The notes beneath the pieces are model-generated. The model did not search any database. It was given only the letters and a program-made list of their open reading frames with translations, and was not told where the DNA came from. This document shows, piece by piece, positions 6,001 to 57,704 of a DNA stretch of 64,000 nt. The position numbers and the translations under genes are program-made. Numbering within the stretch: the first letter of the stretch is position 1; the number at the start of each line of letters is the position of its first letter. Origin of the DNA: Fasciolopsis buskii (Eukaryota > Platyhelminthes > Trematoda > Plagiorchiida > Fasciolidae); NCBI GenBank assembly GCA_008360955.1, contig LUCM01000704.1, forward strand, positions 263,626 through 327,625, written 5' to 3'.

Positions 6001-7804
6001 CGAACATAAGTTCACCGCACAGTTTCCTATTCTTGATAGAACCGCAGACAACACATGGGAAACTTTTGGAAGTTGGATATAATTTCCCTTTCAGAAGATT
6101 ATCATCAATTGTGCTGCATTTGTCCTTGTGATACTCAAAGTTCCCATGAAACTTTTCAGATGAAATTCCCAATTTGTTATTCATAAACTAGTGTGCGAGG
6201 GCGAAGCTCACTCTAAATAACCTTGAGATCCCAATCAGGACCGGATCGTGATCACATTCTGACTGAAACTTCATGACAGTTATGTCCCCTCACAGCAACA
6301 CTTGTGGAGCTTTGACAATCTCGAAATTGAGGTCGGTTGGCGTTGTGTATTTCGTCTTTGCTATTCGCCCCTGTTTGGGTAAGGAACTGATTTGGCATAC
6401 GCGATATTTGGGTTGCGTATTAGCACACTGACGGGTTGTGGACAGTATGGGCTGCTATTTCAAGCTGGATATGCCAAGCAGATCGAAGGCGGTAACCAAT
6501 TAGTGGTTGGCGGCAAATCGTGTTTAAATGCTAATTAGATGAACACGATACCGCCGTTTTGTTGGTCCTAGGAGTGCACAGGATAAAACGGGGGATCGTG
6601 CTGAGTGGGGAGAAGGAATTTCAGCAGGCGCGCAGGGGGACGGGGGAAATTTGTTCTTATAATTGCCCAGACGAATGTGAAAAGCTGAGAACGGAATTGA
6701 TTCACACTGGTGATGATTACGAGCAGTGAAGCAAAGAAAAGCAGCAATTTATCACTCGGACGGGTGATTGTCTGTGGGTGTGCCTGTGCGTATTTTTGAA
6801 TAGACATTGTGCGTGAAAGTAGGATCACTCAAGATGAGATGTCAAAAATCCAATTTTTGGTTATCAAAACATACTCAAAACGTAGACAAAATCACACCAC
6901 GCGCTTTTGTCTAAGTACATACATACGCACACATAACTAAGATGTGTTTGTGTAACCACGGTTACAGGAACAAGTGGGTCATTAGCCAAAAGTGAGATGT
7001 TTAGACTGACCACAAAACGGGCTGACAACCTAGCATGGGGGCATGTAAATCTGACAGTTCGTTGAAATCCACAAAATCCCTTCTCTAATCCGAGAGATGC
7101 TGTTTTCAGACAACTATGGCCGGAATTGCTGTGATCTAATTTGAATCGATTGTGTGGGTAGCACTTGTGAGTATTGAAAAATATAACTCGTGCTTTATCT
7201 TCGCTTTCAGTGAGCGGATGATCCTGGCTTCTGCCTGAAAGTACGTGAACATCGAAGCCCCAAAAGTCAAATAATTGGCTCGGGCCCTGAAAACACTTAG
7301 ACGGATCCAATAGGCTGTCCGAAAGTTGTGTGAATTTCAAATAAGCTGAACAATATTCCAGACTCATTGTAAGGACGGCTCCCGATGCGCGAAGTAATAC
7401 TGCTCATCGACAGCTTAGCTTGCAGCTTCCGTTAAACCTTACACAACTTTCTGTCTTCTTGTGCACTCAACTAGCGTGGCACATGTTTTAAATGGATTGT
7501 TTCTGTTGCTATATTTGTTTAAGTGCACCCATTTACACGACCGACCTGAGGTACATCACAATGCGGCGACCGGTACATGCGATTCGCTGTCTTGGATTTG
7601 ACAATTCGTTTGAAAGAGGTTTAGCGGAAGTGAAAAAAATCTGCATATTTCCCTTCCTATGAAACAACGAATCCAGTGAAAATATGTTGTTATCGGCTGC
7701 TTACATACCTGGATGACAGCTGCACTCAATTCTGATTAACTCGAGTCAAATTTGTTTTATTTTCGCAGTTCTGTTTAGAGCAACTTTTGTTCAATATATG
7801 TACA
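1..7804. other. Region with no recognised gene
   Basis: No domain, tRNA or transposon signature was recognised on either strand. The only simple sequence is a CT-rich tract at about 357-388. The longest open frame is minus-strand 6864-7367 (167 codons). It has no recognisable domain, biased low-complexity composition, and no splice or start context, and such a length is not surprising by chance in 64 kb. Treat the region as intergenic or intronic. Confidence 0.6.
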
Positions 7805-8206
7805 TTTCATGAAATAATTCACCGTGTGATATCACCGTTCAACTGATCATAAAGAAACTATGGAAGCACTGTACAACTGTTTCATCTAACTTGTTAGGAA
7901 TCATGAACAGTGCATATCCACCCCGGACGAACGATTCTGAGTTGAACGACCTAGCCATTACGCTACCGGGCAGGCTCTGAACGGTTTGTTCATCTCCACC
8001 ACATGATGTTGCACTTATCCGTCACTGATTTGCACGGTTACTGTCCGTTAGCTTGCAGAGATCGACCCCTACTGATAGATGACTTCTCTGCAGGTAGCCT
8101 AAGTACATCGAAGGCTTTTGGATATGACTTACACAGTAACCGTTTAAAATCAGTGACGGATAGGTGCAACATCATGTGGTGAAGTTGAAAAAACCGTTCA
8201 GAGCCT

Positions 8207-8281
8207 GCCCGGTAGCGTAATGTCTAAGGCGTTCGACTCACAATCGTTCGTCCTTGTTCGGGTTCGCGTCCCAGTTCGGGC
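8207..8281 (+). ncRNA. tRNA-Val-like pol III promoter module in FB copy 1
   Basis: A 75-nt segment folds as a degenerate tRNA. The acceptor 5' strand GCCCGG faces a 3' TTCGGGC. The D-arm region is TAGCGTAATGTCTAAGGCG (A box). The anticodon loop reads CTCACAA, giving anticodon CAC (valine type). The T arm holds the B box GGTTCGCGTCC. The variable region is longer than in a normal tRNA and pairing in the anticodon stem is imperfect, so this is a tRNA-derived SINE head and not a working tRNA gene. Confidence 0.7.
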
Positions 8282-8292
8282 GCGGTAGGTAT

Positions 8293-8340
8293 GCACTGCT
8301 CATGATTCCTAACAAGCTGGATGAAACAGCTGTACAGTGC
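8293..8340 (+). ncRNA. Hammerhead-ribozyme-like motif, core-mutated
   Basis: Stem I strands GCACTG (8293-8298) and CAGTGC (8335-8340) are fully complementary. GAAAC follows the stem II region. Stem III is the self-complementary ACAG/CTGT, leaving GTA as the expected cleavage triplet. The conserved box reads CTCATGA where an active hammerhead needs CTGATGA, so the essential G5 is C. The stem II loop also has extra bases. The fold is preserved but activity is unlikely in this copy. Compare the intact version at 40431-40479 on the minus strand. Confidence 0.6.
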
Positions 8341-9469
8341 CTGCATGGTTTTTTATGGTGAGTTGGGCGATGATATCATATGATGAATTATTTGATGAAA
8401 ACATTCAATCCGCTACTACTAAAATTATGTAAAGTTAACAGTACACGTTTTAAAATAGATTAATCTAGAGGCACTGGCTGAAGCAAAATAGCAAGAGATC
8501 GTTTGTGTTCAAATGCATCTGTGTACTTGTGATCTTTGGTGCCATGATGAATCCTCTTTTAAAAGTTGTAACCATTTTCTTATCTTTTGGTTATCTGGTC
8601 GAACTGATACAATACTTAATTATGCCTTCGTTTGTAACTTCACTTCATGGATTGTCTTTTCAATCCCTGATGTTTTGCTATTTGCCGTCTGCTTTTGGTT
8701 CCATGTCATCTATTCCTAATAACCGGTCATATCGTACTAAATCGAGAAATCATTTTTGACTCCTGTTTGTTTTCTTCCGTGCAGATTTCAGTCGACTGAA
8801 ATTTAATTCATGCTAGTTGGAGTTTGAAGTAGTTTACAGGCAAAAGCATTTGAAATGATTTCCCGGTCAGGAGTAGAACAATGATAACCCAGATAAGGTT
8901 TATTGCGACGACCATGAAATCAGGTGTTAACAACCAAATGTTGTGTGAATCTTAAGAAGGTCGTCGACAGACTGTTGTGGACAAATTAGCGCATTCGATT
9001 TTTCTTCCAGTTGCTTCTGCATAGTTATTCAGTGAATCCTTGCCTCATACTGTTAGTAACAGTACATAACAAATTCGGCATGTTTGTGCGGTACCGTTTG
9101 GTTGCAATCTCCCATACACAAATCCGGGGAGTCATAATTGCACTTTTATAAATAATTTGACAGATTTTATTCACTTGACTGCCTCGATATAGTTTGTACA
9201 TGCGTAATTAGATCCACGTCTGATACGACGACAAATTTGTCCATGATTGGGAAGGTATATTTACACACAGAGGCCCAATGAAGCGAAAAATTCTTTGTAG
9301 TCAGTTCGTGACAACTGACTGTCCAGCGTAGATGATATTTGCTTATTTAGACAATTATCTGCGCCCAGCATCCATTGACCACTGTTTACCGCGGAGGTTT
9401 CGGTAGGATGCGGGAAATCGACAGGCGTGACCAGTGCATGAGCTGCTGGATCCGTCATCATTGTTTTCA

Positions 9470-22109: not shown

Positions 22110-22236
22110 CACGGATGTTGATCGCAATCGTAGTCATTCGTCCCGGTTTCTCGTCCCATTTCGCTCGCTATGGATAAACACTGCTGATTTCTAACAGAGT
22201 TGAAACAACTGTATATGGCTTTCACACTTTGTATTG
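22110..22236 (+). mobile_element. Fragment of the FB/tRNA-hammerhead family
   Basis: This segment aligns to the right half of FB copy 1, from the anticodon region through the hammerhead tail. It carries CGCAATCG, then a decayed B box at about 22142-22157, then the tail with ACTGCTGAT, TTCTAACAGAG, GTTGAAACAACTGTAT. The hammerhead box retains CTGAT but has lost the following GA, while GAAAC and the stem III palindrome are recognisable. Only the 3' half is present, with no inverted partner arm, so this looks like an ordinary single-unit SINE remnant. It supports G at the position that is C in most arms of copies 1 and 2. Confidence 0.6.
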
Positions 22237-32632: not shown

Positions 32633-32637
32633 TATTT

Positions 32638-32940
32638 CGGCAGAGTGCTTAAGCAGGATTAAATCCAACCGGAACTAACGACGACCAATTGTCATTATTG
32701 AAAACAAATCCATTAAACTGATGGGGTGACGGCAACCGGAGCGGAAAACTAGCACAGCCAGCCAAAGGGCCCACGTGTGGTGGGGTTTTTGAAAGAAATA
32801 AGTATATATATATATATGTGCTGTGCTACATTTCCACTCCAGCTGCTGTCACCCCATCAGTTTAGAGTATTTGTTCTCCATTATGACCATTGTTCGTCGT
32901 TAGTCTCGGTTGGATTTAATCCCACTTAATCACCCTGCCG
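32638..32940. repeat. Large inverted repeat at the 5' end of the CR1-like element
   Basis: The left arm (about 32638-32757) and right arm (about 32822-32940) are reverse complements over about 119 nt with few mismatches. They are separated by about 64 nt that includes a second AT tract. The right arm runs straight into the endonuclease reading frame of the CR1-like element, so the arm sequence is probably that element's 5' region. The left arm is then a second, inverted copy of the same 5' region, truncated at the outer AT tract. Confidence 0.8.
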
Positions 32941-35045
32941 AAATTTCTCCTCCTTTAGACTTAGCTACGCATGTACATCACAGATTTTACACTAAACCGA
33001 AAACACGCATTCGTGCCAGTTTGCAAGCTGCACTTAACTGTACCCCATCAGCCAAAATCCCAGTTCCGTCTCTACTAAGTACTAGCATACGTTCGCTTCT
33101 CGTGAAATTATCGTATCTATCTCATTCTTCGCTCTCGGATACATGTTCTTGCATGTATGATTTGCATTCAGGAGCCATGGCTCAACTCACATGTTGCGGA
33201 TGGCCTAATATCTATCCACACATCCCCTTACGTCCTTTGATTTGACTGATCTGTCAACCTTCCAAATCAGAGACGTCTCCAACTTAGATGAAATTATTAT
33301 CCTGCTCTCAAGTACTTGTCCCTTTTCAACCAGTAATCTTTGTCTTTTACTATCAAACCTCAAAGTTTACTCCCGGACAGCTTTCTAATCTTTCGAGGAA
33401 TCTAACCAGCTCAAACGTCGACTACGTAATTTTCCTCGGGAAAATATTCTTCTTCAAGGATCCACTTTTCATGTAAATTGGTGGCTTTCTTTTGAATTTC
33501 TAAATAGTAAAGTCGACTTTTCTACACACACTCAGCCTAATGTTTGATACATATTGCCCCTCAGGAACACTTTCTCTGTAATTGCCGTAATTCTTCCCCC
33601 CCACTGAAGGCCTTGCGAGACGGAAGTTACACTTCTAGAAATTACGGGATTCCCAGAAAGTCAAAATCCTTTCATCCTTATTATCGAAGGAATTAAAGCG
33701 AATCGACTCGTCGTGTGCTAGCCAACTCCTGACCGGCTGCAACAGCAGACGCCTCCGGCAAGGAAGTTGGCTTTTGTGTGGAAAGAAAACGATGCCAATC
33801 AGCACAAATTATCAACTAAGCGTTTATTTATCTATTTAATGGCAGTGTATTTTCATGGTGCCCAACTCAATGCGCTGACACTAAACCGTTTTCTAATGAA
33901 TTGTTCAAACTCCGCCGCTCGACCAAAATAACTGCAAGTATAAGTCCCGATAGTTTATCTCAACTTCTAGTGTATGCTGCGGTTTCAATCACTGATGTAC
34001 TTATTTCTTTTCTTAACACCTCTTAAAGCAAACATTCCGTTCCCAATTGTTTGAAACCAGTTAGTATTGTGGCCATCTACAAGTCTAGCAATTCCAGCTA
34101 TCCATTTTCTTTCCATCACTCTTACATCATGCTCTGTTAGACTAACAGAACGCGATGTCCTGAGTCGGCTAACTTCTGTCGGTGTGCCCGATGTCCCGCT
34201 TCAATTTGCGTGCAAACCAAACAAGCCCGCTTAGTATCCCGTGCCTTTCCTGGTTCATAATATCCCCAAATCCTTGAATGCATCCGCCAGAGCTGTCCTA
34301 TGTGCTTTCATAGATTTTTCATCTGCTTTCGACTCCGTTTCACGGTCTTTACGTCTTCGCAAACTTGAACAGTTCAGCTGTTCTAAGTGCTTCTTGTCAT
34401 ACCTATTTAGATTATTTTACCAACAGAATTCGTTGTACCTGACTGGGAAGAAATAAATCTACTTCTTCGTTAATTGATTCTAGAGTCTCTCAATGAGCCA
34501 TTCTTCCTCCTTACTTGTTTTCAACATACATCATCCACGTACATATCAGTTCCTAAATTATTCCAAATATGAGGATGACGCTACTTCTGTCCGTCTATAT
34601 CTGGAACTGACGTTCTGAACTTGTCCAGCAACTTGTCCCTCATTCATGATTTTTCTCTGGCTTAACTCGTAATTTGCTAAAATGTGTCGAATGTTCGTTT
34701 ACTTATTCTCGGCTCGCTTATCCGACTATCCCTTCTTTAATCAACACAGAATCACTCACTAGGGTAGATTCTCGGCTCGCATCTGGTTTAGTTAGGAAAG
34801 ACGTGGTACGTCAGTCATCATTGTTATATCTTACATGCCACTGAAAGAACTCTGTACCAAACTATTGTGCGAAAGATTTACACTTAAAATTCTCTCGGAT
34901 CCGTTCCATCCCTTACTTAATGACCTTTCTAAATGCCATTCTTACTACAGGTCACGTCCAACCTTCTGCTCAATAACCTATCTCAGAAATACCTATAACA
35001 ACCCAAGTGTTCTCTACTTAGTCCGAATTCTTCCCAATTGAAAAC
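32941..35045 (+). mobile_element. Decayed CR1/Jockey-type non-LTR retrotransposon
   Basis: Fragments of one ORF2 appear in order across shifted frames. An endonuclease start (SIRSLLVKLSYLS, about 33090) is followed after a frameshift by a CMICIQEPWLN-type segment, as in the 63.2 kb copy. The reverse transcriptase follows: a fingers segment (KPVSIVAIYKSSN, about 34055), motif A (CAFIDFSSAFDSVSR, about 34300), motif B and the YEDD box (about 34567), and a C-terminal tail (ILSDPFHPLLNDLSKC, about 34895-35040). Many stops and frameshifts and a short middle mark it as dead. The catalytic F/YADD is YEDD here. It belongs to the same family, or a sister family, as the copies at 48.3-49.6 kb and 62.5-63.9 kb. 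Confidence 0.75.
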
Positions 35046-39470: not shown

Positions 39471-40430
39471 TCCAGGAACAACGAGAGCATCACCGTCCTC
39501 CTGGTGGAAGAAAGGCGAATGAAGATTGTTGCAAACCAGAAAAAATCATACTGAGAAAGCAAACCGCCTTTTAGGCGACAAGAATATCTATCGCTTAGTG
39601 AAAGACGATTAGACCAAAAACTGGAAACGGAGCACGGTAGTAGACTGAAGGTGTTAAAAAGAGTGTATGGGGCTACTAAAGAGAAACAAGGGAAAATGAA
39701 ATCTGCGGATTCATGTAGTGCACAATTCTACGAACCACTGAATGCCCACAAGGATGGGTAGTCAGGCAGATCCATGGTTTTCCTGTCTGCAAATACAACG
39801 CACAACTTGTCTACAACACGAAGGATGCGCCTGAAGTTACTTACCAGTGGATCAACCAAATCCATAATCAAAACTCAGGAAGGCTTTACAAAACCTAAAC
39901 ACAGCTTCACCATAAGGGAAGACACAACCGGTGATCCGATTCATAGTCATGGCAACTGACCTTATGACTGGATTGAATTTACCTAAGTGCGTAACGGTGA
40001 ATTTCTTCGATACATCCACTAAGACGAGCCACCAGGTTTATAAACAGACCAAGAACTACGGCATTTAATTATACAAGTGCATCAGCTTAATCGATGTGCA
40101 TGACGAAATCATTAAAATTTCTATGGGTTCCACTGTATACAGATTTTTCACTCATATGGTGATGCATGCGCCGGAAAATGTCGCACTACGACAGATTCGA
40201 CCAGGTGTTGGAATCCGGTACGTGGATTTCGCTTTTGTTGTTAACAAAGGCTGAGATAATGAAAAAACTTACACGACAGTCAACCTTATTCTCAAAGTTA
40301 TCGGTTCACAGAGAAATTGGAGACAGATGGCAAGCTGATATTTCTAGATTTTTAGTGGTAGGAGATTGAATGTTTACATGAAATAATTCACCATGTGATA
40401 CCATCGCTCAACTCACCATAAAGAAACCAT

Positions 40431-40479
40431 GGAAGCACTGTACAGCTGTTTCATCCTTGTTAGGAATCATCAGCAGTGC
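40431..40479 (-). ncRNA. Hammerhead ribozyme with intact catalytic core (FB copy 2, left arm)
   Basis: On the minus strand every element of a type I hammerhead is present in order. Stem I is GCACTG (40479-40474) with CAGTGC (40440-40435), 6 of 6 pairs. The box CTGATGA lies at 40473-40467. Stem II is TTCCT with AGGAT, four pairs and one T-T mismatch, with the loop AACA. GAAA is at 40452-40449. Stem III is the palindromic ACAG/CTGT with no loop. The cleavage triplet is GTA, ending at 40441. A minimal stem III like this usually cleaves poorly as a monomer and better as a dimer. Hammerheads in trematode SINE-like repeats and in PLEs are established; activity here is untested. Confidence 0.6.
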
Positions 40480-40672
40480 ATATCCACCGTCACTGATTTT
40501 AAACGGTTACTGTGTAAGTCATATCCAAAGCCTTCGTAGTACTTAGGCTACCTGCAGAGAAGTCATCTATCAGTAGGAGTCGATCGCTTGAGCTAACGGA
40601 CAGTTTGCGAGCAAATCAGTGACGGATAGGTGCAACATCATGTGGTGGAGATGAACAAACCGTTCAGAGCCT

Positions 40673-40747
40673 GCCCGGTAGCGTAATGGCTAAGGCGTTT
40701 GACTCACAATCGATCGTCATTGTTCGGGTTCGCGTCCCAGTTCGGGC
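40673..40747 (+). ncRNA. tRNA-Val-like pol III promoter module in FB copy 2
   Basis: A 75-nt tRNA-like fold with an acceptor of GCCCGG against TTCGGGC, the A-box region TAGCGTAATGGCTAAGGCG, the anticodon loop CTCACAA (CAC), and the B box GGTTCGCGTCC. It is better preserved than in copy 1. It should be read as the internal promoter of the SINE and not as a functional tRNA. Confidence 0.7.
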
Positions 40748-40753
40748 GCGGTG

Positions 40754-40804
40754 GATATGCACTGCTCATGATTCCTAACAAGGGTGAAACAGCTGTACAG
40801 TACT
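40754..40804 (+). ncRNA. Hammerhead-like motif, core-mutated (FB copy 2, right arm)
   Basis: This is the mirror of the intact ribozyme at 40431-40479. The box reads CTCATGA (G5 to C), stem I has one mismatch (CAGTAC against GCACTG), and stem II reads AGGGT. GAAAC and the stem III palindrome are intact. Probably inactive. Confidence 0.5.
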
Positions 40805-41665
40805 TCGATGGTTTCTTTATTGTGAGTCGAGCGATGATATCACATGGCGAATTATTTCTAGATTTATCAACAAGACTAATTATGAAATTAACATTATAGA
40901 AAACTACCTAGTGGGAACGAATACATGCAGACTAAGTATTAAATTTTCGCAGCAGTCACTCCAATAAATACAAACAATCAAGAAGCTGAACAGTTCTTAG
41001 CGGGGCTGGAACCCACGGCAGCACAACAGAATTGAGGGCGCAAAACAAAAGCTGTTTCTTTAAGATGCTCCAGAAAAACGGATAGCCGAAAAACTTCGTA
41101 AGGAGAACGGTGTACGGAATGATCAGAGGAAAACATCGTAATGAACAGTAAAACAGAAGGTAGACAAAATAACTGCAGGGTGGTTTCAACCGCAAGGCAT
41201 AGCAGTAAATCACGGATTGACAGAAACTGTGAAAATATTCGAATCCATGCCAAAATTTGAAAGGACCGAAAATGGGAAACATGTCCTGTACAGGGTCAGT
41301 TATCTGGACTGCAATAACGTCTACATTGATCCAATTGGGAGAAAAAAGGTCAGCCGAGTATATGAAACATCTCTTTGCAAGATGTGACCCGTTATCTAGT
41401 GCAAACATCCACTAAGACCCCAAAATAGGCAATGTTCACTGTAGATAAAGTCAGCATACTGGATCGATCTATCAGAAGACATAAAACAGGTTCCTAATCT
41501 CCAAGTAATGCAGCATTGAAAACTGGCAGCGACTGAAAAACAAAGCTGATGATGCGTAATAGCACTATACTCAAAAATCAAAATTCCTTGAATTCACTCA
41601 TTAGCGAAACAGAATCGTTGTATGTCGACCCGTTGAAGCAGAGGGAGAAACGATCTGAAATTTAA

Positions 41666-46440: not shown

Positions 46441-47348
46441 CGATGTTTTCTGCTTGCTGGAGAAATTACACATACCGGTATATAACGAAAATCTCCCAGT
46501 TTTGAAGAAATTTGCTCTAATTTCAAATCAGAAAAAAATTGATCAGAGTCATTACGCAAGCACCCTTTCCGATCACAGCAAAACAGTTCATATGATTTCT
46601 CCTATCAAACATATTTTAACTGGTCACTCTGTTATGCCTTGCATTGACCGTGTATTCTATATTTCTACAAAATAACTGACTATTTCTGAAGGCTATAGGA
46701 TGGGTTAAATGAAACCAGTTGGACGATAAATTTGATGGCGCCTGGAAAGAGACGAATCTGGCAGAAGTTCAGACCCCGTTGCTTGGAAACGGACTATTTC
46801 TTGCCTAGTGGCTTACGCGTTTGATCCCCATCAGTTACAGTTGGAGAAGTATTATCTGTCAAAAGATTTAAGGCAAAACTGCCAGTAGAAAATCGATTTG
46901 GGGACAATTTGCTGAACACCAACTCTGGAAGAACATTTTCACGATCAGAATAGCACAATTAACACTGTGATACAGGGGGAATCATTTTAACAGTGACTTA
47001 GGTAACAAGTCTTACGTGAACACCAAAGCAATCTAATCTCTCGATAAATCTTGATGACTTCAGCGTAAAAATGTAATTACCGGCTCCGATTATCCTTAAA
47101 GTTCGCATTGCAAACACGGGTTCAAAAATGAGGTCGTTTGCAAATAAATAGCGTGTGGTGCGCTTATTCGATAGACGTGAACCATGTCATTTTCAAACAG
47201 GTTTTACAGCAGTTTCGCTCGTGAACACGACAAGATCATGTCAGATTTGGAAACAAACACACGCGTATAGTTCACCTAGTATTTTGTGTCAGGACCAAAT
47301 GATATAAGGAGTGTATCAAAAAATCGATGCACGATGTGTTGGTTGTAA

Positions 47349-47702
47349 TTGCGAATGATTTAGTGTTAATAACACAGCTTTGTTGGTAGATGTAATGTGC
47401 CTACGTTTCGACTACCGTGGGTAGTCTTTCTCAAGACAAGTTTTACAATCAAATAGCTGAGAGAACGTTCACATGCCAAATGATGTTTTATTGTCTGTTT
47501 GTGAATGTGTGTGTGTGTGCGTGAACTTTGGGTCGAATGAGAGATTAGTTGTCCTTCACGTTATGGTGGTGGGGTCAATAGACATGGTGACCTTCGGAAT
47601 TGGTTGTAAAATTTGTCTTGAGAAAGACTAGCCAAGTTAGTCGAAATGTTGGCACACTACATCTACCAACAACGATGTTATTAACATTATATCATTCACA
47701 AT
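47349..47702. repeat. Inverted repeat with ~102-bp arms carrying a PLE/hammerhead-like motif
   Basis: Arms 47349-47450 and 47601-47702 are reverse complements at roughly 85%, around a 150-nt loop that contains a short GT tract. Each arm contains TCTTGAGAAAGACTA, a 6-8 nt loop, TAGTCGAAA(C/T)GT, and then ...GGCACA(T/C)TACATCTACCAAC. A stem followed directly by CGAAA resembles stem II and the GAAA box of hammerheads found in PLE terminal repeats, but the CUGAUGA box is not canonical. No protein is encoded. It may be a solo terminal-repeat remnant of a PLE or a foldback element. Confidence 0.65.
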
Positions 47703-48339
47703 TAATATTTGTACGTTCGAAATTCAGTTGGACAAAATATCCCTTAGAAGGATAGTGCAAGCTTCTGGCTATGATATACCACGTTGCCAATGAAAGTGAC
47801 CTTTCAGCGACTCTTGATAACCTGCGCGTCAAAAACTAACCGTCGCAACTGTGTTCGGACAAGCTGACGGTACACCAACTGATTAAGTTTGAGGAGAAAC
47901 CGTATTTACCCGATTTTGAGTTTGGTGGTTCATTTCATATACTTTCGTGTGAATGTACCCATATACTCAGCCGATTTGTAGATTTCACTGTACAGTCTAC
48001 GGTGTGAATAGGTTGAATAAATTGTGCTCTTGGAAGTATTCTGACCAAATGTACGAGGGTAAGAATTACCTGTGACATCTCCTAAAATGAATCAAACATG
48101 AATTCCTTTTTGGATGCGACCAAATGAAAGTAACTTCGGGAATCCTAACTTCCGTTAAGATAATAGGCCAGCCGATGAATCATTAAATCAGGGCCACGCC
48201 TGAGCTGGGCTATAATTCCTTACCAAACACCGAGTGATTTGGCTGAATAGAAAGTGCTTTAGATGTCGATCAATATGTGGGCACTAGTAGGCACGCAAAA
48301 ATAGAAAAAAGCGGTATTAGGTTTGAAATCTTCAAGATT

Positions 48340-52500: not shown

Positions 52501-54351
52501 TGGAACGATCGATTTCTTTTATAACTGACCTAAACAAATAACCGACAGGTTTTCATGGGACGTTGCGATTATTCTTCTGGAAAACGGGTTCGGAAAGACA
52601 CAGTCGGGGTAAAATGTATCGAGTTTGCCCTTGGATGGAAAGTCATTGGTTGTGAAACTCTCCGATTACGCGATGAAAGCAAGCGGAATGTGAACAAATC
52701 AAATCGGAAAACAAACGAAGAATTTCGAACGACACACTGCACTCAGCATTTGATTTTGTTGTCTTAACAATAAATTAGATTGATTCTCAGGTTCTGGTGT
52801 GAAAGGCAGTAATTGTTTCGGATCAACGGCTTTGTTTGTGGAGATATGGTAAGGAAGTCAATCAGATGTTTCAACCGGTATCTGGTAACACGGGAAGATC
52901 AGCAGAAATTCCGCGTGCACAGCATAGACAAACGACACTAGTTCGGAATAATTTCGGAACAAAACAAACATATAACTGCATCGAATTTATTCCTCTTCAT
53001 TCCTTCGAAATATACAATCGGATACCAAGCCAAACACTGACCGTGTAGGACTCAACTCTAAGCAACCCTCTATCCTTATATCGGGGAACTAAAAACCGTT
53101 GCCTGTTTAACCAAATCCGGTCCTTTTAAGTCTACTCGACGGCGAAGCTCTGTAACCTTCCCTGAAAATTCCCGCTAAATAACACATGGTTCGGAGTGTC
53201 CGTCACCACGGTGCCATCCATGGTTAGTTGAGTTTCAAATTTAATAACAGGAATTTCAGGAAACAAATATTTTCAAGCCTTTTTACCGGATCATCCAAAC
53301 ATTTGTTCAGTTTATTCAATAACAGGAGAAATAATGCGTGCAACCTGATGGACTATGGGTTATCGCAGTCGATGTTTGAAAGACGAAATACAGGTCATTC
53401 TGGTGCGAATCGAATGAGGTCATTTGTTGATTGGCACATGTATCGCTGGACCTTAGCAGGTTACTAATGATAAATACCCAGTTTGCCTGCAATTCACAAA
53501 CCGCATTATTTCCGAAGCTCTTCTGATCCACAGAATTCTCTACTTCGTTCCTTTCATACAATTTTTTATTTTTGTCTATTAGCCAACAGAATACAATATG
53601 TCAGAACAAATACCGTGACCAGTTAGAGACGGTCGAATGGGACCATGATCGATGACGGCATGTCCAAATTTCTACACCCCAATCTCAACCACTACAGTAT
53701 CGCCGGACATGAAAAAAGTGAGTAGAAGTACCTACGTAGTCTAGACACACAGCTCAGTGGACGTAAATGCAACGCGCGAGGGAGTCTCATTGCATGAGAA
53801 ATGATTATCGGGCCGGTTTATTCCATGCATAAAAAAGCTCGGCAGGAATATGTTGAGACGGATGATAATATTACGGTGACATATACGGACAGAATCTATT
53901 TATCACGGGCGAATTTTGTAAGTTACCAAATATATTCTTGCTTACTCCGATGAGTGGTACTAGCTCAGTGAATCCCCGGCGTGGTGAAAATCTCGGTCAG
54001 TCATTTGGCAGATCATTCATCAATCGAAACAAACTTGAATAATTTATCACGCACGTTACGCTGCTATTTCACCACATCGATGAGGAGATGATGAAAATTA
54101 TTTACGAATATGATACGCCAACACAAGTTTCACCATAAGTGTACATATATATATATGTGTGCATCATCACAGTATTGCAGATTCTACAGTTAGCCGAATT
54201 GTCCCTTCGTCGAATGTATTGTACTCTGATCAGACGCACAGAAACCGACAGGAACAACTCCAGACATGAATCAATGATAAGAGCAAATAAAATCAAATAA
54301 TAAGACAACTGCGCATATACTAGAGCATTCGCTGATCAAACTAAAATTAAT
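49561..54351. other. Region with no recognised gene
   Basis: No transposon domain, RNA gene or well-supported exon was seen on either strand. The open frames are at most about 80 codons and match nothing known. A short AT/GT tract lies at about 54146-54162. Confidence 0.5.
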
Positions 54352-54500
54352 GAATCACCCCACGGAGCACACTGAGAAACAACGCAGTGTGACGAATAAG
54401 CTCGTTTACAATTATTCGTAACCACGCCAGTATAGAATAACTGAAAACGAGTTTGTTCGTCATACTGTGTTATTTCTCAATGTGGTCTGTGGGATTATTC
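54352..54500. repeat. 5' terminal hairpin of PLE-1
   Basis: Arms 54352-54419 and 54433-54500 are reverse complements with about 80-85% matching and a 13-nt loop. The transcript would fold into a single long stem. The right arm (GAATAACTGAAAACGAG...) recurs at 57102-57150 downstream of the coding region. Confidence 0.8.
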
Positions 54501-55490
54501 GAAAAGCTAAAACAAGCCAAAGACCCAGATGTACTCAGTGAACTTAACAGTTACATGAAATTCCGCAGGAAGTTGGCTCTGACGTATGCTCAGATTGCGA
54601 ATCTAGATTATCCTAAGCAGTAATGGACCATTCTGAGAAGCAACCGACTTACAGTCACTCGCGTCTCTTTGCGCCGTTAGACTCTCAGTCAGCGAGACAA
54701 CTTATCCAGCCGAATAAGTCATTTGGAACGGAACTTTTTAGCTCTTCACAAGTGCTCGGCAGACTGACGAAGGAAGAGAATCGGACATTCGCATCATAGG
54801 TCGACTCGATTTTTGTAAAGCAAATTCAACGGGAGCTCTCTTCATTGAGAAAACTCACCAACTCGGAGGAATTAGCTGGTGAGTTTCCTTCTGACCTAAT
54901 TAAATGCGTCTACAATTACTCATCGCTTAACTTGGATAAAACGTTGCCTGAGGTTCTGTCGCTAGGACCAAAATTTTGTTACCCTGGTAATAAGAGTAAA
55001 CAGTTGGACATGGAAGTCGAATTTGAGAGCCTTTTCACCCAAGTCATAGATCTGGTTCCATCATCACCAAACGGGTTAGAGAAACCAAAGACTACCCTGG
55101 TTAATGCCTGCTACCATTATGGAAAAATCAAACCGTCAAACGAAGGAATAGTGACTAGATAACATCTAAAGCGCCTTGAGGAATTGCAAAGCAACAAAGA
55201 AGTTATTTTGTCAAGACCGGAAAGAGGTGCAGGACTTGCAATCCTCAACAAAAAGGACTACAAAAAGATAAGTTCTTTACTAGGCGACTTGTCGAAGATC
55301 ACGTTTAATACAACCGAGAAAGATAAAGCGATACAGATGGAAAAATAGATTTCTAGGAAAGTACGGTTATTGAAACAGAAGGGAATCATAGACTCAACTA
55401 CGTTTGAACCGAAACGATCAACCGGGAAGTCTATTCCGAGACTATAGGGGCTGCTGAAGGTACAAAAGAATGAGTGCCTTTGTGACATAT
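54501..55490 (+). pseudogene. PLE-1 N-terminal and RT fingers region (broken)
   Basis: The frame opening at 54501 (KLKQAKDPDVLSELNSYMKF) ends at a stop after LDYPKQ. A second frame, 54845-55162, continues with an acidic-basic mix and then, past stops at 55160, 55346 and 55445, reads ILSRPERGAGLAILNKKDY (about 55207). This is the PLE counterpart of the RADKGxxTVV block. It is followed by SIPRL-GLLKVQKNE (about 55430). A +/-1 shift at about 55470 and a TGA in the next codons join it to the palm. In an intact PLE this region would form the linker and RT fingers. Confidence 0.7.
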
Positions 55491-55497
55491 CCTAGAC

Positions 55498-56241
55498 ATG
55501 AGAAACTCGCCTTATCACATGACAGCAAAGTGGTTAACTGGATTGCTGAAGCCGGTGAGGCTAGCAGTCTCAAAATGCAGCTTATGGGATACCTTTGATT
55601 TCGTGGAAATCATCAGAAAGTTAGATCTTTCGGGAAAGCGAATGTTCTCACTTGATGTTACCTCACTGTTCACAAGCATACCGGTCAGTGAAACAATCGA
55701 TTATCTATGCGAATCCATTCTTGAGAACAATATCGGTGTAGGTATTCCAGTGGATGGACTGAGACAACTCCTTTTCATGTACACACAAAATGTCCAATTC
55801 AAATATAATGAGGAGGTTTATCGTCCAAAACTTGGGGTTGCAATGGGATCACCTCTGGGGCCCTTATTTGCCGACGTCTTGGTGGCAAAACTAGAAAATA
55901 CCGTATTACGGCCATTGTTCGGACAGTTCACACTCTACGTACGTTACGTAGACGATATTATTTGCGTGGTAGACGAGAATGTCGAGATCACACACACGCT
56001 GCATACATTCAACAATGTCCATCGTAATGTCCGATTCACTCTTGAAAAGGAAGAAAACGATAGAACAGCATACCTGGATGTTTGCCTAAGTCGTCGAATG
56101 GATGGCTCCGCACGGCTATCCGTACATAGGAAAGCTGCTTGGAACGGACAGTATATTCACTTCAGCAGTTTTGTACCGCTTAAAGTAAAACGAAACCGAA
56201 TACATTGCCTAGTCAATAGGGCACGGAAAATCTGTACTTAA
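55498..56241 (+). pseudogene. PLE-1 reverse transcriptase palm domain
   Basis: An open stretch of 247 codons, not a true start. It covers RT motif A MFSLDVTSLFTSIPV (residues 49-63), motif B GVAMGSPLGPLFADV (113-127), the catalytic box YVDD (residues 150-153, 55945-55956) and the motif D/E region (EKEENDRTAYLDVCLSRRMDG). The GSPLGP and YVDD forms, with the later YIHFSSFVPLKVK block (PLE counterpart of HF.S.HPLKHK), are diagnostic of PLE reverse transcriptases. The frame ends at a stop at 56239-56241, but the same frame reopens immediately after it. All catalytic residues are present. Confidence 0.85.
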
Positions 56242-56253
56242 GATACTATAGAG

Positions 56254-56930
56254 ATGGAGCTTCTTTTCTACGGAATGTGTTTCAGCAGAAAGGTTATCCT
56301 GAATGTTTCATTGGGAAACCCATGGAACAGTCTGAAGAAAGACAACGGAAATCAACTGTGGAAAAAAACCCTATATATAAGTTTGTCCTTACAAGGTGAC
56401 ACTCCAGCGGACGTCACCTATCACAGATTGTCCGGAGCTGTCAATAAAACGTTCCTTGCAGTAAAACTGCAAACCCTGTTTACATTAAAGTCACTTGTGC
56501 AGTCATGCCTAAAAGATAATGTGCCGGATTCTATGGCCTCATTCTGTGTAGACTCATTCGACAGTTCTTGCAGGGCAGCATACGTTGGCCGTACATCCAG
56601 ACGTCTATCCGAAAGGGTTCGTGAACACCACCTGGCCTGGTTAAACATAGGAATGATTAAAATCATTATCAGTGCTGGTGTTCACACCTGGTTGATTCCA
56701 ACCACGCAGTGAATGTTACTGAAGCGTTCAGAATAATCTACAAAGTCCGGATTACGTTATCAAAACTGGTGAAGACCGGGTGTTGTCCACAGCTGAGGCC
56801 GTGTACATTCGTTACTACGATCCCCCGTTGTGTGCCCAGGAGCATTTCGTGCAAACATTGAAACTTCCCTGGCCCACTCTGCACCCCCGAAAACCTAGCG
56901 AATCTCTTACGGACCCGGGTCTCTGGTGTG
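56254..56930 (+). pseudogene. PLE-1 C-terminal GIY-YIG endonuclease
   Basis: It continues in frame with the palm. A cysteine pair (CVDSFDSSC, residues 98-106) precedes YVGRTSRRLSERVREHH (about 56581), the PLE-type GIY-YIG core with its conserved Arg and Glu-His. A frameshift near 56690 moves the rest to another frame: HLVDSNHAVNVTEAFRI, then AEAVYIRYYDPPLCAQEHF (56792-56848), the usual PLE C-terminal block. The nuclease would nick target DNA for target-primed reverse transcription. It is broken here by the frameshift. Confidence 0.8.
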
Positions 56931-56971
56931 GATCGCATCCCCCTAACCTATAATTTCGACCACCACCTGTT

Positions 56972-57012
56972 TCACACACACACGCACACGCAGACGCCCA
57001 CGCACAAGCACA
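56972..57012. repeat. Imperfect (CA)n tract
   Basis: CACACACACACGCACACGC-type run directly after the PLE-1 coding region and before its 3' terminal repeat. Confidence 0.85.
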
Positions 57013-57099
57013 CAACAGTGGACTTAGTTTTACTGCTAGAATTAGTCGATCATCTTCTCAGTTGCAGCAAACCACATAATGTTGTGTATTGGCATGATT

Positions 57100-57150
57100 A
57101 CGAATAACTGAAAACGAGCTTATTCCTTACAATGTTTTGTTTCCCAAACT
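57100..57150 (+). repeat. 3' terminal repeat of PLE-1
   Basis: CGAATAACTGAAAACGAGCT and the following ~30 nt match 54434-54485 in direct orientation, with about ten differences. Together with the hairpin they form the pseudo-LTR pair. Confidence 0.7.
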
Positions 57151-57704
57151 GAACTTACTTTTTCTGTAGTTGAGTTTAAACCAGTTCTGTTTTGTTCATG
57201 GTACCACTAAATAAGACGGCAGACAAAAATTACAAGACACTGATTCTACACTCCCATGAGAAAATGATGTGAAAAAGCTCACAGTAGTCAGATTGCAGTT
57301 TTGCGAAAACCAGGCAAAGTAAGAGTGACCCCAAGCAGCATGGAAGAGATGGAATTAAATCTGATACAACTGCAGAGTTGCCTACAGTTTGGTCTAACCA
57401 GTCAGTACATACGAATACAAAACGTTGACGACTAAACCAAGTGATACGACAACTGGTTTTTCCCATATGTGATATTCAAACATAGCCAATATACTATTGG
57501 GAGAAAACTGTTTTGGTACACGTTTGTCTTTTGTTCCCTTCGTGATGAGAGAGGTATTCTGAAGAGAGGTATTAATCAAAGCTGGAATCATAAACGAAAG
57601 GATGTTCTAGTGTGTGTGTGTTTGTGTGTTACTTTGACTATTTGTGTGCACGAATGAATACGTGCTTGCGGATGTAGTGTTTTGGTATGCGGCGGTTAAC
57701 TAAA

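Follow-up and report, generated by a model that had tools for sequence, protein, structure and literature searches.

Frequent head-to-head copies in a family of tRNA-headed hammerhead repeats from Fasciolopsis buskii are consistent with bilateral target priming

Sm-alpha and Sj-alpha of Schistosoma are described, in the passages of the cited papers drawn on here and throughout, as tRNA-headed hammerhead SINEs (PMC2770079, PMC2576457). Animal retrozymes with circular RNA are also known; Penelope-like elements were named in 2020 as a strong candidate partner only, the argument being based on shared hammerheads, tandem copies and co-existence and not on insertion sites (PMC7229834). In Penelope, the pLTRs occur in direct and inverted orientation, most often head to head; one of the inverted ends may bear a 31-bp tail, the duplications measure 8-9 bp, and the full replication cycle was left to future studies (PMC3846280, published in 2013).

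A family of short dispersed repeats was analysed in Fasciolopsis buskii, starting from a window (the whole stretch of DNA under analysis, 64,000 nucleotides of contig LUCM01000704.1). As judged from sequence, its members are non-autonomous hammerhead elements with a tRNA-like head, that is, Sm-alpha-like SINEs or animal retrozymes. The likeness to Sm-alpha and Sj-alpha is one of architecture: a tRNA-related head with A and B boxes (called as tRNA-Val(cac) by ARAGORN) is joined to a hammerhead and occurs in many copies in a flatworm host. The head is tRNA-Val-like in this family and tRNA-Gln-like in Sm-alpha (PMC2770079); the unit measures 397 nt, and head-to-head copies, which are frequent here, are not mentioned for Sm-alpha or Sj-alpha in the passages used (PMC2770079, PMC2576457). 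A type I hammerhead within short tandem units (150-450 bp) is shared with the animal non-LTR retrozymes (PMC7229834), and the 397-bp tandem units of loci L014, L022, L031, L080 and L093 fall within that range. By eye, helix III (2 bp with a 4-nt loop) and the U-U at the base of helix II are like those of one axolotl retrozyme class, and the palindromic copies with target duplications go beyond the retrozymes of the same paper, as far as its passages used here extend (PMC7229834). Head-to-head inverted repeats, a tail on one end, short duplications and partial tandems are shared with Penelope-like elements, the duplications being about 12 bp long in this family versus 8-9 bp in rotifer Penelope (PMC3846280). 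Penelope is autonomous, with a reverse transcriptase and a GIY-YIG domain (PMC3846280), whereas none of the 12 open frames of at least 120 aa listed for the window overlaps either family member described below, so that the family is not itself a Penelope-like element. The inverted arms, the tRNA-like head, the hammerhead and the kinship to Sm-alpha, retrozymes and Penelope elements proposed in a preliminary description of this DNA are borne out; the head-to-head arrangement itself, not among the forms it listed as known, has already been reported for Penelope pLTRs (PMC3846280).

Positions 7805-8425 (copy A) and 40350-40858 (copy B) of the window are two members of the family. Sequence comparison showed them to be similar to each other and each to be strongly self-complementary. 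The nested inverted arms noted earlier are real: copy A contains inverted repeats at 7925-8031/8147-8253 (107 nt, 92% identity), 7852-7932/8274-8354 (81 nt, 84%) and 7805-7856/8349-8400 (52 nt, 81%), and copy B contains one at 40380-40489/40749-40858 (110 nt, 93%). The start of copy A at 7805 was retained; its end was moved from 8400 to approximately 8425, the right end carrying a tail that the left end lacks. In copy B, 20 nt separate the antisense arm from the sense arm. The features of both copies, and the two modules of the repeat unit to which their arms were aligned, are as follows.

7805..8136, minus strand: antisense arm of copy A, unit 373 down to 18, short outer end TTTCATGAAATAATTC at 7805 (L001 1501-1832)
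7866..7913, minus strand: left-arm hammerhead of copy A, by eye, core TTCATGA, mutated
7926..7971, minus strand: left tRNA-like head of copy A, partial (positions 1-46 only, B-box half missing)
8133..8136, no strand: head-to-head junction of copy A, overlap of 4 nt
8133..8425, plus strand: sense arm of copy A, unit 109 to 398, long outer end CTACTACTAAAA (L001 1829-2121)
8207..8283, plus strand: tRNA-like head of copy A, A and B boxes by eye (L001 1903-1979)
8293..8340, plus strand: right-arm hammerhead of copy A, by eye, core CTCATGA, mutated G5
40339..40351, plus strand: left target-site duplication of copy B, TATTTCTAGATTT
40350..40489, minus strand: antisense arm of copy B, unit 397 down to 258, long outer end (L047 1506-1645)
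40435..40479, minus strand: hammerhead of copy B, intact CTGATGA/GAAA core (RF00163, 26.7 bits, E 2.4e-4, below gathering)
40510..40858, plus strand: sense arm of copy B, unit 18 to 367, short outer end (L047 1666-2014)
40673..40749, plus strand: tRNA-Val(cac)-like head of copy B (ARAGORN; Rfam tRNA 17.1 bits, below gathering)
40759..40803, plus strand: second hammerhead of copy B, by eye, core CTCATGA, mutated
40853..40865, plus strand: right target-site duplication of copy B
Unit 182-258: tRNA-like head
Unit 268-312: hammerhead

Across the genome the family occurs in tandem, single and head-to-head form. The unit was taken from the tandem copies L014, L022, L031 and L038, in which it forms a plain direct repeat (397 nt in L014). 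It begins with TGTATCAAG and continues with a 5' core, a spacer, the tRNA-like head, the hammerhead, the arm and a tail ending in CTACTACTAAAA. The core that had been regarded as a separate module between the arms is the 5' part of this normal unit, as the tandem copies demonstrate. A third, degenerate family fragment with head and arm is located at 22118-22213 of the window. The unit of L038 is longer than 397 bp owing to a GGGTTC tandem expansion within the tRNA-like B-box region of the array (approximately 1205-1255 and 1650-1740), and one unit with this expansion also holds a run of N. L093, at the end of contig C434, is a direct tandem array of approximately 2.6 units that reaches the contig end and is possibly a satellite-like source locus.

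The hammerhead identified earlier was confirmed, below the gathering score: RF00163 (type I hammerhead) scored 32.1 bits (E 3.3e-6) in an intact related copy, 1.9 bits short of the gathering score of 34. At that score no Rfam family was matched anywhere in the window, and no hammerhead was present among the four sub-threshold Rfam matches in 7300-8900, both arms of copy A deviating by eye from the CTGATGA core; those matches (MIR530 at the palindrome centre, SNORA16 in the left flank and two others) were taken as chance. By eye, helix I is formed by GCACUG/CAGUGC and helix II by UCC/GGA with U-U at its base, helix III consists of two pairs with a 4-nt loop, and the cut is predicted to fall after A306 (unit 306/307). 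The minimum-energy fold of the 62-nt hammerhead stretch (z -2.8) kept the outer part of helix I and helix II; since it pairs part of the catalytic core otherwise, it is on its own no proof of an active fold. All ten catalytic positions are kept in 78 of the 125 arms that cover them; in the window this holds for one arm of four. The hammerhead is located 3' of the tRNA-like head. The preliminary assignment of this head to tRNA-Val held for copy B, which carries the single tRNA called by ARAGORN in the window; in copy A none was called, and the boxes there were read by eye. The Rfam tRNA match of the intact copy was likewise below gathering (16.5 bits). Fold prediction of the head on its own gave no cloverleaf, which may be expectable for a SINE head, and the tRNA-like boxes probably represent an internal pol III promoter.

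An unusual pattern of C/G differences was also recorded. Position G5 of the hammerhead is C in 21 of 132 arms, and among the sense-strand arm changes of the 74 palindromes G-to-C (259) is nearly as frequent as G-to-A (276), versus only 134 for C-to-G. The G-to-C changes often stand in TGA or AGA contexts and recur at unit positions 262, 216, 276, 263, 333, 345 and 176, with C-to-G at 162. In three other repeat pairs of the window C/G differences are rare (2 of 18, 1 of 20 and 1 of 13). The excess could reflect old subfamilies, an editing-like process or an artefact.

For the genome-wide survey, the assembly (703 Mb, 6974 contigs) was searched with copies A and B, and the best 40 of 6120 and of 4099 first-look candidates, respectively, were scored, which gave loci L001-L087; the 6120 candidates are not a copy count. 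After removal of the duplicate loci L002-L008 and L054, 79 non-duplicate loci were retained. The two palindromes would have appeared as accidents if every other copy had been a single, direct unit; many copies with both arms were found genome-wide. Because the queries were themselves palindromes, this set is biased towards palindromes, and the frequency was therefore taken solely from a query with the core alone, which picks copies irrespective of their arms and favours young ones. Of its 40 scored places, 25 fall in the 21 regions examined and 15 lie outside the count. Head-to-head copies were present in 13 of the 21 regions (10 of 15 new ones and 3 of 6 already in the locus set) and in 7 of the 13 regions without N runs; in two of the 13 head-to-head regions (L100 and L102) N lies inside the junction. 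For comparison with this core-selected sample, 5'-inverted Alu copies were reported as 1 of 5554 (PMC2912911). Single inserts were also obtained, with duplications in L095 (391 nt) and L083 (402 nt) and with none convincing in L097 (425 nt). L049 and L058 are double palindromes with more than one inversion per cluster.

Antisense-then-sense junctions numbered 74, in 70 of the 79 non-duplicate loci. The outer ends at these junctions are of two main kinds, the short one being approximately 25 nt shorter than the long one: 51 junctions are long/short, 1 is long/long, 1 is short/short and 21 have other ends, and among the head-to-head regions newly obtained with the core query, 10 in all, 5 are long/short, 1 is short/short and 4 have another end. 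In elements with a called duplication, long ends fall at unit 393-413 (46 ends) and short ends at 364-381 (41 ends). Target duplications were tested in elements of at least 250 bp that lay close neither to N nor to a locus end. A score of at least 9 was reached by 48 of 76 elements, versus approximately 3 expected from re-paired flanks; the length was 10-14 bp in 41 of the 48 (mode 12), 32 were perfect and 16 mismatched, and 18 were not 12-13 bp long. As for the constant duplications that had been suggested as a check, 28 of 76 elements, copy A among them, have no convincing one. The 5'-truncated copy L032 also has a duplication (score 9), and the combination of variable 5' truncation, a fixed 3' zone and target duplications is that of SINEs moved by target-primed reverse transcription.

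Among 34 short ends, 59% carried microhomology of at least 3 nt, and among 37 long ends 32% did so, versus a null of 8% for each, in a test that depends partly on the duplication call by which the junctions were set. The target approximates to A-N/AA-N-T at one nick and to TT/N-T at the other (37 sites, the slash marking the nick). Of these sites, 25 have A at -2, 25 have A at 0 and 26 have it at +1; at the other nick, T occupies -2 in 22 sites, -1 in 21 and +1 in 19. When the flank columns were compared with their own reverse complement, the correlation was 0.75 (p 0.001, column shuffling, 37 sites). As the letters inside the duplication partly restate the microhomology, the weight of this symmetry rests on the columns outside the duplication, which already mirror each other.

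Each arm can be read as an antisense cDNA begun at its own outer end. Among the 51 long/short junctions the complete arm is at the long end in 18, at the short end in 26 and at neither in 7. The complete arms, 329-419 nt in length, terminate between unit -22 and +49; like the single inserts, they are about one unit long. Of the partial arms, 40 of 44 stop at unit 99-136 or 236-277, and the latter zone, which extends from the 3' portion of the tRNA-like fold into the beginning of the hammerhead, is plausibly a barrier. More than one unit is contained in 24 of 148 arms (up to 777 nt, or 1.96 units), 36 arms run across the unit boundary, and the predicted hammerhead cut site is spanned by 133 of the 148, a single arm ending within 3 nt of it. 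Crossing of both the boundary and the cut site is compatible with a template in the form of a ligated circle or of a multimer left uncut, with stops near the priming zone.

In L1 twin priming, each of two cDNAs is copied from its own part of a single RNA, and an inversion results. The best reading of the present data is a bilateral target priming that resembles it: on balance probably, a symmetric staggered break offers two 3' ends, reverse transcription of a circular or multimeric RNA is primed from each of them, and the resulting cDNAs are joined head to head. Tandem copies would first be transcribed, with the tRNA-like boxes as the probable internal pol III promoter; the RNA would be cut by the hammerhead, and monomers would be ligated into circles, although tandem linear transcripts could serve as the template instead. 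An endonuclease would cut both strands of a symmetric target approximately 12 bp apart and leave two T-rich 3' ends, each of which would anneal to an A-run of the RNA (unit 371-374 or 394-397) and prime an antisense cDNA. One cDNA would run approximately once around, the other would often halt at unit 99-136 or 236-277, and the 3' ends of the two would be joined by microhomology to give the palindrome. The enzyme responsible is likely to be a Penelope-like reverse transcriptase/endonuclease. An overlap of 1 nt or more is seen at 52 of 74 inner junctions, versus 44% for random joins. L1 inversions carry microhomology at three places, the two outer ends and the point of inversion (PMC2912911), and it occurs at the same three junctions here. 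Unlike the two cDNAs of L1, those of this family overlap, and a palindrome is formed. The 28 of 76 elements without convincing duplication, the mismatched or off-length duplications among the other 48, and the 23 of 74 junctions and 5 of 10 new core-query regions without long/short pairing run counter to the bilateral scheme, as does a spacing of 12 bp where rotifer Penelope has 8-9 bp.

Rare variants are common to both arms in 59 cases, whereas 300 permuted re-pairings gave 7.6 on average and never more than 29. The two arms of a palindrome have thus usually been copied from a single source; gene conversion from arm to arm could explain the sharing as well. Mean arm identity is only slightly higher within copies (0.915) than between copies (0.898), because most changes postdate insertion. 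One RNA is not always enough, since in L022, L023 and L044 the arms of the palindrome differ in tRNA-indel type. The shared variants and the head-to-head form would also be expected if a cDNA that had reached the 5' end of the RNA folded back and copied itself and the hairpin was then integrated, and the geometry predicted for this course is found in 18 among the 51 long/short junctions, those in which the long end bears the complete arm. Self-priming has moreover been proposed for Penelope, but on an antisense template (PMC3846280). Folding of the cDNA in cis can yield this one type only and cannot make the 26 junctions with a partial arm on the long end, for which letters absent from the first cDNA would be needed; nor could the multi-unit stretches of L015, L038 and L055 have been templated by the other arm if priming began at the long end. 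Snap-back of this kind is accordingly considered unlikely.

A palindromic master, transcribed whole and retrotransposed as such, would likewise give arms with shared variants, and the nearly fixed short outer end (unit 364-381, 41 ends) is like a start site. Against this, the 74 junctions fall into 59 classes at a tolerance of 2 nt, 51 of which have a single member, and copies with the same junction at different loci are no closer (identity 0.86-0.94) than all pairs on average (0.908). The arm that bears the tail can also differ at one junction, as in L050 and L067. A master is therefore distinctly improbable. Junction diversity, with copies of one class no more alike than others, indicates that most palindromes were made anew at insertion; as far as the copies themselves tell, they are not one amplifying foldback element and were mostly formed independently. 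The failed dimer considered in the preliminary description comes close to this result, most palindromes having the look of independent integration products.

That two unrelated adjacent insertions, or errors of replication or assembly, produced the inverted pairs is very improbable: several copies or N occur at some loci, with N in the junction at L100 and L102, but 48 of 76 elements are flanked as a whole by a single duplication pair, and the long/short pairing is far from random. The MITE-like movement of a foldback DNA transposon carrying the ribozyme, which had been envisaged at first and which the long inverted arms and the nearly constant 12-bp duplications might recall, retains next to no probability in view of unequal ends (51 of 74) in place of equal terminal inverted repeats, 59 junction classes in place of one common inner structure, same-junction copies that are no closer, target-primed motifs with microhomology, and single or 5'-truncated one-sided copies (L032, L083, L095 and L097).

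The bilateral scheme was set beside an old Penelope-like element in the window, the parts of which are the following.

54338..57157, plus strand: old Penelope-like element, reverse transcriptase frame at 55486-56241 matching RVT_1
54352..54437 (antisense) and 54435..54500 (sense): left partial pLTRs, head to head
57082..57146: right pLTR, without the last approximately 20 nt
54338..54349 and 57146..57157: candidate 12-bp duplication, 10 of 12 positions matching

A match of 10 of 12 was reached in 50 of 2000 random-window trials. The name pLTR is given by analogy with PMC3846280. The left outer end of the element extends approximately 20 nt beyond the right one. The named relatives among the 52 matches of the reverse transcriptase frame are the flatworms Sparganum, Spirometra, Calicophoron, Dicrocoelium and Trichobilharzia. 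No Pfam family was matched by the frame downstream of it, so that no partner endonuclease was seen there, and no hammerhead was found in the terminal repeat at the left end (54300-54560). L031 adjoins a Penelope-like reverse transcriptase reading frame, by eye and with N between the two. Two further inverted pairs were noted in the window. One, at 47346-47704, is head to head (107 nt, 86%), carries the motif CTTGAGAAAGACT...AGTCGAAAC known from Penelope elements, and gave no hammerhead by Rfam; the other is at 32634-32944 (125 nt, 84%). Since Penelope insertions share the fingerprint of ends and duplication, which in this family comprises the 51 of 74 long/short end pairs and the 48 of 76 elements with duplication, a Penelope-like partner is likely. 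That Penelope-type integration is normally bilateral, with tailed head-to-head palindromes on circular hammerhead RNA as its regular product and not an error, is a tentative proposal that may well prove wrong.

Palindromic retrozymes were named in no title or abstract opening among the matches listed, in a search that mostly did not extend to subscription papers. As far as the listed literature shows, a hammerhead SINE with overlapping bilateral priming as a probable main insertion mode and with a symmetric target is new. The partner of the animal retrozymes is not settled (PMC7229834), and the replication cycle of Penelope is not fully worked out (PMC3846280). The present family is short enough for both cDNAs to be read end to end and is represented by thousands of first-look candidates, and the sites of priming, the stops, the joins and the cuts in the target can be read from each insertion. 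The question of partner and cycle thereby becomes open to test through genome data and a simple assay in vitro. If true, the bilateral scheme would account for the puzzling inverted pLTRs of Penelope elements and for their optional tail, and would identify the partner of the animal retrozymes.
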